Below are positions 3,709-30,804 of a stretch of 64,000 bases of DNA, one piece after another (position 1 is the first letter of the stretch; every line of letters begins with the position of its first letter). The translations under genes were made by a program, and so were the position numbers. The notes under the pieces are model-generated. The model saw only the letters and a program-made list of their open reading frames with translations, was not told the DNA's origin and searched no databases. This stretch comes from Peribacillus simplex (GTDB taxonomy: Bacteria; Bacillota; Bacilli; Bacillales; DSM-1321): assembly GCF_001578185.1 (NCBI RefSeq), contig NZ_CP011008.1:4430001-4494000 (forward strand). The letters are read 5' to 3'.

Positions 3709-3935
3709 GGTTTCTCCTTTTCTTGTTTTGACTTTATTGTATAAATGTTCTTTCTCTCGAGATTCAGTTAATCCACGCGATAAAACTCAGTGGCAGTCCA
3801 TATTAATGTCTACTTCTGCCAATTTATTATACCGTTTCCAATTAAAAATGGCTCTTTTTAAGTATGGGTGAATGATAATGATCATTAAATCTTTGGATAG
3901 CGTACCTCTTGCTAGTAATTTAGAGCTTGAAAAAA

Positions 3936-3957
3936 GCCTGCCGTTGATCCGGCAGGC
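3936..3957 (-). terminator. Strong minus-strand intrinsic terminator
   Basis: GCCTGCCG and CGGCAGGC arms around a short loop, followed on the minus strand by TTTTTTCAAG. No ordinary gene precedes it on that strand, but the small ORFs at 4078-4370 do, which argues that this stretch is transcribed leftward. Confidence 0.85.
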
Positions 3958-4077
3958 ACTGAATTTTTATATTAACTTCACTGGAAGAGTCATGTATTCA
4001 GTCATGCCTCCTCCACCTTTTTCTGTCTTCTTCCTTCCCGTTTTGTCTCCCACATCCCTCCCCAATCCAGGATATGC

Positions 4078-4221
4078 TTAATTCAGTAAAGTCAGGCTAA
4101 TAAAAGCAATGCCAAATATACAGTACAGACTGAGGGTAAAGGGCTGGGGAAAAATAATATATACTATCATACTAATGATCATTAGCAGGATGCTGAAGGC
4201 ATTTATCCTATCTCTCCACAT
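4078..4221 (-). CDS. Possible small membrane peptide, 47 residues
   Basis: ATG at 4221 follows AAAGGTGAG and starts two bases after the stop of the ORF at 4224-4370, so the two look translationally coupled. After a charged start (MWRDR) the peptide is almost wholly hydrophobic (INAFSILLMIISMIVYIIFP, then LSLYCIFGIAFISLTLLN), which fits two membrane helices. Downstream on the same strand a 12-residue ORF (MTEYMTLPVKLI, 3967-4005) follows a very strong GGTGGAGGAGG site, and then the terminator at 3936. I do not recognise the family; coding status is inferred from spacing and composition only. Confidence 0.4.
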   Translation of the reverse strand: MWRDRINAFSILLMIISMIVYIIFPQPFTLSLYCIFGIAFISLTLLN

Positions 4222-4223
4222 AC

Positions 4224-4370
4224 TCACCTTTGGTCAACTCCTTTTCCACAAGCGTAAGGTACATTTTCATCGCATACTTCTTCCGGTGCTGCCTGGCCGG
4301 CTTTGAGGAAACGCCTTAAAAGCACCCCTCTGACAGTCAAGGCAAGCAAAAATAGAGTTACTTTCTTCAT
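4224..4370 (-). CDS. Possible small secreted or membrane peptide, 48 residues
   Basis: Starts MKKVTLFLLALTVRGVLLRR and contains two Cys in PEEVCDENVPYACGKG. It is the first of three tiny ORFs reading toward the terminator at 3936. The ribosome binding site is weak (AAGTAATGACG), so expression is uncertain. It could be a decayed gene. The stretch 3709-3935 between selO and this unit shows nothing else. Confidence 0.3.
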   Translation of the reverse strand: MKKVTLFLLALTVRGVLLRRFLKAGQAAPEEVCDENVPYACGKGVDQR

Positions 4371-4553
4371 TCGTCATTACTTTAAGTTATAATGGCTGTG
4401 TGCCTAATTTGTATTTTTTTCATTTTTCGTTAGTAAGTAAGCGTATGATAATTTATAATTATAAAATTGAACCCACTAAACAGCCATGTAGCCAAAATGA
4501 TAAATCTATAAAAATAATCTAAATATTCAGACTCTTAAGGGGATATGAAATGA

Positions 4554-28681: not shown

Positions 28682-28906
28682 ATGAATTTATTATAATGCC
28701 TGATCATGATGCAATGATTGACGAAAGATGTTAACAATGGACAGTGCTCGATTTTGTTGCTTATCCATTCTATAATTCCCCTGGGATTAGGCAACTCTCC
28801 TAAATCCTCTCCGTTAATTTTTATTAGCCCGTTTGTCGTTAACTAACGCTCAAGTAGGTACCATTGCGCATATCATAAAATTAACCTTATTAAAGGAGGG
28901 GTCTGT

Positions 28907-29023
28907 ATGAAAGGGAAAAAAGGAAAAGCAGCTTCATCTGGCAGTTCATCTACCGGTAGCACTTCTACTGGTGGCACTTCTACTGGCAACAAGTCCACTG
29001 GCCATAAATCTACTGGGAAATAA
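28907..29023 (+). CDS. Small Ser-Thr-Gly repeat peptide, 38 residues (upstream of CotH-SET)
   Basis: ATG 28907 follows a strong AAAGGAGGGG site. After a basic head (MKGKKGKAASSG) the peptide is a run of S-T-G units with variable spacers (SSTGSTSTGGTSTGNKSTGH, then KSTGK), ending at TAA 29021. The same frame continues for 42 more codons with more T/S-T-G units and a basic tail (see next entry), so the ancestral protein was about 81 residues and this stop may be a nonsense mutation or a readthrough site. Ser/Thr/Lys-rich repeats are the kind of sequence that CotH kinases phosphorylate in CotB and CotG, and a CotH gene follows 130 bp on. The opposite strand is also open, but lacks a ribosome binding site. 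Confidence 0.65.
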   Translation: MKGKKGKAASSGSSSTGSTSTGGTSTGNKSTGHKSTGK

Positions 29024-29283: not shown

Positions 29284-30804
29284 ATGTCTTATCATATTCC
29301 ATCTTATTTCTTAATGATAGAAGAAAAAAATCTAGAAGATTTACGTGCGGATATTTGGAGCGATGACCCTATTCCCGCCAATTTGAAAGTAGAAAACGAC
29401 AATTATGTTATCGATATTGCCTATCGGGGCTCTTATACCCGCAAATTCCGGAAAAGATCCTATTGGATTGATTTCATCGAGCCAGAACGATTCTTTGGCG
29501 CCCACAAAATCCATCTCAATGCCGAATACAGAGATCCTTCCCTCATTCGCAATAAACTCTCACTCGATTTCTTTCAAGACCTTGGTGTCCTTTCCCCTCA
29601 TAGCCAACACATCAACCTATTCCGAAATGGCACGTTTAAAGGTGTGTATTTACAATTGGATTCCGTCGATGGGTTTTTTTTAGAAAAAAGAGGACTTCCT
29701 GCCGGCCCGATTTATTATGCTGTCAACAATAATGCCAACTTTTCATTGAAAAGGGATGGGAAAGCGAAAGACTCCCTTACGTCAGGCTATAAACAAGCGT
29801 TTGGCAAACCCGCTGATGATGAATATCTAATCGAATTCATCAAAAAAATCAACACCACCCCACTTGCAAAGTTTCCTGAAGTAGTCTCGCAGCATCTTGA
29901 TATCCATAAATACTTACGCTGGCTGGTTGGAGCCGTTTGCACCATGAATAACGACGGTTTCACTCATAACTATGCACTATATCGCAATAGTAAAACGAAG
30001 TTATTTGAAATCATCCCTTGGGATTACGATGCCACTTGGGGACGCAAAGTCAGTGGAGGGATCATGGAGCACACATATGTCCCTATCGGAGGGAAAAAGG
30101 CAAACCACCTTATTCATCTGCTCTTGCAGGTTCCGGAATACAGTAAGTTCTACAAAGACCTCTTGGTTGAAACATTAGAAACCACATTTACTGTGAAGCA
30201 TATGGAAAATAAAGTATTACCACTGCACCAGGGCATTCGCCCCCACATCCTTCTTGATCCATATAAAAAGAATAAGATTGATCTATTCGACAAGGAACCG
30301 GAATTCATCTTCGAATTCATTCGCAAACGCAGTGATTACTTAAATAAGCACCTTGGTAGCCTAGATGAAAAAAATGCCACGACACAACTGATAGCCAAAC
30401 AGAACCGAAAAAGGGGAGTTGCTTCCGTGTCACCAATCTGCATTAAAAATACGGGGAAGTATGGCAGGGGAGTATATGCTACAAGGGATATTCAAAAAGA
30501 TGAACTCATTGAGGTATCACCTGTCATTATTTCACCCAAACATGAATGGAAATATTTAAAGAAAACCGCACTCTTTCATCACTGTTTCTATTGGGGAGAT
30601 GATGATGAAACTGTCATTGCCTTAGGAAATGGTTCACTATTCAATCATTCATACACTCCAAATGCGACATTCGATAATAATTTAGAAGATTTAACGATAG
30701 ACTTTTATGCACATAAAGATATAAAGGCTGGCGAGGAAATCACGATCAATTACAATGGTGAACCTGATGATAAATCCCCGTTATGGTTTGATGTAATCGA
30801 GTAG
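29284..30804 (+). CDS. CotH-type protein kinase fused to a SET lysine-methyltransferase domain
   Basis: 506 residues in one unbroken frame. Residues 1-355 are a CotH spore-coat kinase domain: DIAYRGSYTRKFRKRSYWID (44-63), LFRNGTFKGVYLQLDSVD (112-129), the catalytic-loop region MNNDGFTHNYALYRN (221-235) and the metal-binding IIPWDYDATWG (243-253). Residues about 384-495 are a SET domain: GRGVYATRDI (394-403), LFNHSYTPNATF (452-463, the N-H-S-x-x-P-N motif) and AGEEITINYNG (482-492). CotH phosphorylates Ser in CotB/CotG during coat assembly; SET domains methylate Lys using S-adenosylmethionine. Start follows AAGGAAGGTGAG. No signal peptide. All key motifs of both domains are kept, so both activities are plausible. 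Confidence 0.9.
   Translation: MSYHIPSYFLMIEEKNLEDLRADIWSDDPIPANLKVENDNYVIDIAYRGSYTRKFRKRSYWIDFIEPERFFGAHKIHLNAEYRDPSLIRNKLSLDFFQDLGVLSPHSQHINLFRNGTFKGVYLQLDSVDGFFLEKRGLPAGPIYYAVNNNANFSLKRDGKAKDSLTSGYKQAFGKPADDEYLIEFIKKINTTPLAKFPEVVSQHLDIHKYLRWLVGAVCTMNNDGFTHNYALYRNSKTKLFEIIPWDYDATWGRKVSGGIMEHTYVPIGGKKANHLIHLLLQVPEYSKFYKDLLVETLETTFTVKHMENKVLPLHQGIRPHILLDPYKKNKIDLFDKEPEFIFEFIRKRSDYLNKHLGSLDEKNATTQLIAKQNRKRGVASVSPICIKNTGKYGRGVYATRDIQKDELIEVSPVIISPKHEWKYLKKTALFHHCFYWGDDDETVIALGNGSLFNHSYTPNATFDNNLEDLTIDFYAHKDIKAGEEITINYNGEPDDKSPLWFDVIE

Follow-up and report, generated by a model that had tools for sequence, protein, structure and literature searches.

A CotH-type kinase and a SET domain are joined in one gene of the analysed DNA (64,000 nucleotides, hereafter the window, from a genome of 5.52 Mb in two contigs whose closest named relatives are Peribacillus), and this fusion is conserved within its genus. 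The gene is linked to a gene for a basic repeat protein, and together they make up a three-part cassette. We read the locus as the fused form of a spore-coat modification system in which a repeat protein would be the common substrate of a CotH kinase and a SET lysine methyltransferase; the kinase activity, the methylation and the sharing of the substrate are predictions, and we put the probability of this reading at about 0.5. The sequence-only reading had placed both domains, each of them complete, in this one polypeptide and knew of no described case. Full-profile Pfam matches within a single intact frame confirm the first point; the second agrees with a full-text literature search (most subscription journals outside its range), in which no listed match concerned a CotH-SET fusion or pair by its title or abstract, and none dealt with lysine methylation of a spore-coat protein. 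The two families are known, and as far as that search reaches, their combination and the cassette appear to be undescribed.

29284 to 30804, + strand: CotH-SET fusion gene, 506 amino acids, ATG start, single intact frame of 506 codons
29284 to 30366, + strand: CotH kinase part, residues 1 to 361, by Pfam, PDB sequence matches and AlphaFold2 model
30367 to 30426, + strand: linker of 20 residues (60 nt), at the position of the intergenic spacer of unfused relatives
30427 to 30804, + strand: SET part, about residues 382 to 506; a free SET protein of 125 amino acids might start internally at the GTG at 30427
30643 to 30663, + strand: SET motif NHSYTPN, residues 454 to 460
30730 to 30753, + strand: SET motif GEEITINY, residues 483 to 490, including Y490, which we take to be the catalytic tyrosine

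The CotH family profile PF08757 aligns over its full length (1 to 322 of 322) with residues 45 to 353 at 261.6 bits (cut-off, 23.8), and the SET profile PF00856, also over its full length (1 to 105 of 105), with residues 394 to 491 at 64 bits (cut-off, 22.4). The motifs that had been picked out by eye (NNDGFTHN and PWDYD for CotH, NHSYTPN and GEEITINY for SET) are all present, and both SET motifs, including all seven residues of NHSYTPN, are invariant in the six fusion protein clusters. The same holds for D224 of the NDGF motif and for D247 and D249 of PWDYD. By motif and by an equal spacing of 23 residues only, D224 and D247 are equated with D228 and D251 of Bacillus subtilis CotH, mutants of which are inactive (excerpts of PMC7821199). 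Among sequences in the PDB, B. cereus CotH (5jd9) matches residues 5 to 361 (E value, 1.6e-109), Schizosaccharomyces pombe Set7 (5h6z) matches residues 383 to 492 (E value, 5.1e-15), and vSET (1n3j) matches the SET part (E value, 1.3e-8). The AlphaFold2 model of the whole protein has a mean pLDDT of 82.4, with a good CotH half and a less confident SET half; the top structural match of the CotH half is 5jd9, with a TM score of 0.96 by target length. As the SET half of the full-length model came out weak with the mixed alignment (A3), this part was also modelled alone; of the five resulting models, the best has a mean pLDDT of 86.7, and two were poor (38 and 36). The best model adopts a SET fold whose best match is Set7 (TM scores by target length of 0.81 for Set7 and 0.85 for vSET). 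Both domains are thus complete, with conserved catalytic motifs and the expected folds, from which a protein kinase and a methyltransferase activity are predicted. The SET part shares its fold, its length and the motifs NHSxxPN and GEExTxxY with the minimal SET lysine methyltransferases vSET (PBCV-1) and S. pombe Set7; unlike them, it is bacterial and fused to, or encoded beside, a coat kinase.

The fusion is the derived state of a more widespread gene pair. In the named loci (79 loci from a SET search, the best 80 of 461 relatives, so that the counts are not frequencies), CotH accompanies SET in at least 20, of which at least 4 are fused and at least 16 are separate neighbours in at least nine Bacillota genera, namely, among the matches listed, Rummeliibacillus, Sporosarcina, Psychrobacillus, Pseudobacillus (a record titled Bacillus wudalianchiensis), Aneurinibacillus, Neobacillus, Solibacillus, Domibacillus and Tuberibacillus. 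The SET gene follows cotH in 14 of the 16 listed unfused pairs and precedes it in 2; the latter (L094 and L096) are both from Domibacillus and have the order repeat gene, SET, cotH. CotH trees were built from 39 and 65 rows, with 4 duplicate rows omitted. All 14 fused CotH rows form one clade in the 65-row tree (SH-aLRT, 93), which is nested in a larger clade whose other rows from named loci are gene pairs, and its closest row is an unfused CotH of 361 amino acids (P0007), the contig of which is as long as that of P0124, a separate SET protein. Most SETs of the cassette type group together (SH-aLRT, 95) in a SET tree of 102 rows and few columns, apart from the free-standing SETs of Bacillaceae. 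The latter belong to the same SET family (the copy in the window's own genome, at C1:4797818, is 54% identical) and differ in forming a separate clade and in not lying beside CotH; the B. anthracis enzyme of this kind is described in PMC3980110 (excerpts). In neither tree do the pairs of Tuberibacillus and of three genomes of the window's genus (G002, G003 and G022) belong to the main cassette clade; the latter three loci (L070, L069 and L068) represent a second CotH-SET pair on a separate branch in each. In G022 and G002, this second pair has an opposite-strand repeat gene of Gly-Thr-Lys type (TGKGG, GTGK), compared with Arg-rich repeats in relatives without SET; no repeat was detected in G003. 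The parts of the cassette are separable: SET occurs without CotH in the stretch examined in Cytobacillus purgationiresistens (a cassette-clade SET at 3890 to 4390 of the 8.4-kb locus L088) and in G032 (L071), and a cassette-like CotH occurs without SET in L160.

The candidate substrate is encoded upstream of the fusion gene.

28907 to 29023, + strand: repeat gene and candidate substrate; KGKKGK at the N-terminus, repeats of the STGNK/STGHK type, and 38 codons before an in-frame TAA
29024 to 29152, + strand: the frame continued past the TAA, Ser/Thr-rich, ending in ...GKKRRR and then TAG

A Shine-Dalgarno-like aaaggagggg lies directly 5' of the repeat gene, and a same-strand upstream gene that starts with M(P)KGKKGK and continues with Ser/Thr/Gly/Lys repeats is found at all nine fusion loci. 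In all five genomes of the window's clade, an in-frame TAA (29021 to 29023 in the window) stands at the corresponding place and leaves 37 to 46 codons, so the candidate substrate of this clade would be only 37 to 46 amino acids long, a point against the shared-substrate reading. Past this stop, a Ser/Thr-rich frame ending in GKKRRR follows in four of the five genomes, and the frame changes in G020. The second clade has four fusion loci, none of which shows such a stop over the sequence inspected, namely the complete gene for L010 and L013 and the first 100 codons for L011 and L012. By a fixed composition criterion, a repeat stretch lies near cotH and SET in 16 of the 20 listed named loci, and visual inspection added three more, L085 (long TTTEG/RRKHRR repeats), L086 (a short stretch) and L092 (truncated by a contig end); at the N. 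fumarioli locus (L090), neither the criterion nor inspection by eye revealed a repeat gene. The same criterion found a repeat stretch anywhere in only 3 of the 59 listed SET-only loci, two of which (L143 and L147) look like chance frames. The repeat gene of Bacillus (Pseudobacillus) wudalianchiensis (L085, 1652 to 2752) has 366 codons with many near-identical units of the ECTTTEGRRKHRRN type.

The arrangement resembles the CotH/CotB/CotG system of B. subtilis in that a CotH-family kinase lies beside a gene for a basic Ser/Thr-rich repeat protein. It differs in that the repeat gene lies upstream in the same orientation and starts with KGKKGK, and in that a SET gene is added, here by fusion. No CotG-like divergent partner gene was found at the fusion locus, and we take the window's repeat gene to lack a CotG-type N-terminus. 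The other CotH of the same genome (L001), which is distant in the CotH tree, has an opposite-strand Arg-rich repeat gene that is CotG-like by position and composition (no profile was used). In B. subtilis, the Ser/Lys/Arg repeats of CotB and CotG are polyphosphorylated by CotH, a kinase on which the striated outer coat depends (excerpts of PMC7821199), and by analogy the repeat protein of the cassette would be a natural CotH substrate.

In the proposed mechanism, the cassette would comprise a short, probably disordered Ser/Thr/Gly repeat protein, basic mostly through Lys, a CotH-type Ser/Thr kinase and a vSET/Set7-like lysine methyltransferase. The repeat protein would be made in the mother cell, presumably late in sporulation; CotH would then phosphorylate many of its Ser and Thr residues, and SET would methylate Lys in the KGKKGK tail, in the STGNK-type repeats or in both. 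This would yield a zwitterionic coat polymer in which the lysines, though still charged, could no longer take part in cross-links. That the linked SET would act on lysines of the repeat protein is suggested by linkage and composition, and the gene pair or fusion beside a Ser/Thr-rich basic repeat gene points to a coat protein that may be both phosphorylated and methylated.

It is possible, with the odds against it, that SET instead methylates another protein, such as the kinase itself, a further coat protein or a nucleoid protein, that the fusion serves only to bring both enzymes to the coat together and in equal amounts, and that the repeat protein is a substrate of CotH only. CotH of B. subtilis acts on Ser/Lys/Arg repeats, and a control search for the SET family in that species gave no match. 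Bacterial SET proteins are described in a review mainly as acting on histones, including histone methylation in hosts (excerpts of PMC3980110); there, the SET protein of B. anthracis is reported as methylating histone H1 and as dispensable for spore formation, and that of Methanosarcina mazei methylates histone H4 in vitro. In addition, some SET-linked repeat stretches are poor in Lys (L094, L116 and L186). Against this alternative stands the association of SET with an unusual repeat gene: 24 of 26 SET-bearing loci have this gene on the same strand, versus 3 of 35 CotH loci that lack SET (rows without a repeat, 4 with SET and 5 without, and 3 duplicate SET loci are excluded), a contrast to which no probability was assigned because the rows are related. 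Within the genus, moreover, SET adjacency goes with Lys-rich and not Arg-rich repeats: more Lys than Arg is seen in the repeats of all 11 SET-linked loci that have one, versus 0 of 15 CotH loci without SET, rows that are related by descent and amount to two or so separate origins of the linkage.

Over all loci, those of the genus included, Lys exceeds Arg in 19 of the 26 loci with SET (6 reversed, 1 tie) versus 11 of the 35 without (23 reversed, 1 tie). Lys richness is thus not specific to SET, since those 11 loci show it too, and the six SET-linked loci with Arg-rich rather than Lys-rich repeats speak against the cassette reading. The Lys-to-Arg comparison does not serve as proof of methylation, the rows being non-independent and counter-examples occurring on both sides. 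Two CotH loci, L160 (G313) and L161 (G111), have a same-strand repeat gene and no SET in the stretch examined; past the basic N-terminus, the repeats of L160 are without Lys and those of L161 contain Arg pairs (STGRR-like).

The shared-substrate reading can be extended, more speculatively, to a dedicated three-gene coat system of several Bacillota genera that places phosphate and methyl groups on one repeat protein and creates a silaffin-like zwitterionic polymer, possibly organizing or mineralizing the spore surface, with the two writers fused in one clade; we hold this extension to be rather doubtful. Diatom silaffins are Ser/Lys repeat peptides with phosphoserine and methylated Lys (excerpts of PMC4557024); the likeness is an analogy of design drawn from composition, and no homology is claimed. 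The zwitterionic C-terminus of B. cereus CotB1 is reported to be essential for coat silicification (excerpts of PMC11818168). Coat phosphorylation by CotH is established in B. subtilis (PMC7821199, excerpts), and the cassette would add to it a defined natural role for a bacterial SET enzyme and offer a compact system in which to test how two charge-related marks shape a biological polymer.

The junction retains traces of the unfused state.

30410 to 30418, + strand: AAAGGGGAG, resembling a Shine-Dalgarno site, within the fused frame; the other four loci of the window's clade differ from it by one base or none

In the 14 listed unfused pairs considered here, the spacer between cotH and SET measures 7 to 197 nt, with 57 to 71 nt in eight of them, a range that includes the 60 nt of the fused linker. 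The start codon of all 14 unfused SET genes lies 11 codons ahead of the YGRG motif, and a clear Shine-Dalgarno-like site precedes it in 13; codon 382 of the fusion (GTG, 30427) occupies the same position. In the one clade of fusions, the stop codon of cotH has disappeared and the spacer has turned into the 20-residue linker, so that one polypeptide carries both domains.

These traces raise the question of whether the fusion is a selectively neutral read-through of the gene pair, the working SET enzyme being a free protein of 125 amino acids made from the internal GTG or ATG and the two enzymes acting separately; we regard this as unlikely. In the window's clade, a AAAGGGGAG-like site and a GTG or ATG at the old start position are kept in all five loci, and because they persist, a free SET protein may also be formed there. 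Separate SET proteins of the genus in databases start at this codon (P0121, 125 amino acids, and P0123, 124 amino acids), and a third (P0122, 138 amino acids) starts within the linker; P0121 and P0122 may stem from gene prediction or from strains in which CotH is broken. The longest contig of P0123 has the same length, 72750, as that of the fused P0003, and the Peribacillus sp. Bi96 record of this length carries an intact fused frame in its DNA. The linker is also less constrained than the domains by dN/dS, and P. butanolivorans keeps an intact cassette-type SET adjoining a CotH broken by several stops (L081, 3400 to 4390), which indicates that SET can outlive its kinase. Two observations speak against neutral read-through. 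The linker frame is open in all nine fusion loci and all six protein clusters, with an in-frame length difference between the clades. In the second clade, moreover, the start codon is kept in two of four loci and lost in the other two, and all four lack a suitably spaced AAAGGGGAG-like site (a GAGG two bases ahead of the codon is too close). A free SET protein is thus unlikely in the second clade.

A search for further fusions and their spread, as suggested by the sequence-only reading, returned five more protein clusters that cover 100% of the fusion at 73 to 87% identity. Among 36 genomes of the genus, 9, including the window's, contain a full-length match without internal stop. CotH and SET are separate adjoining genes in G002, G003 and G022; SET is kept and CotH broken in G004, whose locus matches the P. 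butanolivorans record; SET is present and CotH was not found within the surrounding 16-kb stretch in G032; SET fragments alone remain in G007, G011, G028 and G031; and one genome gave no match of any kind. In 299 genomes sampled from the order, full-length open fusions were found solely in this genus (G000 and G034), and an apparent further fusion from a different family (G200, 67% along the full length) was rejected since it consists of two separate frames with a stop between them. A sample of 398 class genomes contains 3, one of them the window's, whose SET has an E value below 1e-50, and each of these SETs lies beside or within a CotH; the other 5 genomes with a match have weaker SETs, and there the stretch examined showed no CotH. 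So few carriers among the sampled class genomes indicate that the CotH-SET system is sporadic, and its loss or breakage in several genomes of the genus indicates that the locus is dispensable. Six fusion loci (the window, L064, L065, L066, L076 and L077) share the same flanks, an NADH-dehydrogenase-like gene and argS; L066 and L077 end at contig ends, and L066 has about 6 kb between the fusion and the first flanking gene.

Both domains are under purifying selection. In three distant comparisons, dN/dS was 0.13 to 0.17 for CotH, 0.12 to 0.15 for SET and 0.49 to 0.80 for the linker; two closer comparisons, which rest on few changes, gave 0.14 to 0.32 for the domains. The objection that the halves might be separate genes in close relatives, joined here by a frameshift, therefore holds in its first part, with at least 16 separate pairs, and fails in its second, since nine genomes are intact, the fused CotH rows form one clade, and dN/dS is low. 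An assembly error or a decaying pseudogene is highly improbable and, as far as can be judged from DNA, refuted for the window's gene, because the frame is intact in nine separate assemblies and dN/dS is well below 1 in both halves, even though relatives hold remnants in the form of the SET fragments and the broken CotH mentioned above.

A putative mother-cell promoter at the locus is weakly indicated.

28869 to 28877, + strand: CATATCATA, weak mother-cell-sigma-like -10 box upstream of the repeat gene

The sigma-K -10 consensus is CATANNNTA. The sequence CATATCAT is conserved in all nine aligned fusion loci, and the exact CATANNNTA occurs, among fusion loci, in the window's clade only. Upstream of the genes of interest, CATANNNTA was found for 6 of 20 repeat genes and 3 of 25 cotH genes, against a background of 2.1% of 90-nt windows, and because so few genes carry the box, no regulatory claim is made. 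A scan for sigma-70 promoters and terminators gave nothing above shuffled sequences. Among other SET loci, tandem SET genes occur in a metagenome-assembled genome (MAG) of Chlamydiae (L156, 3926 to 4815), and opposed SET genes occur in one of Acidobacteria (L136, 3971 to 4858).
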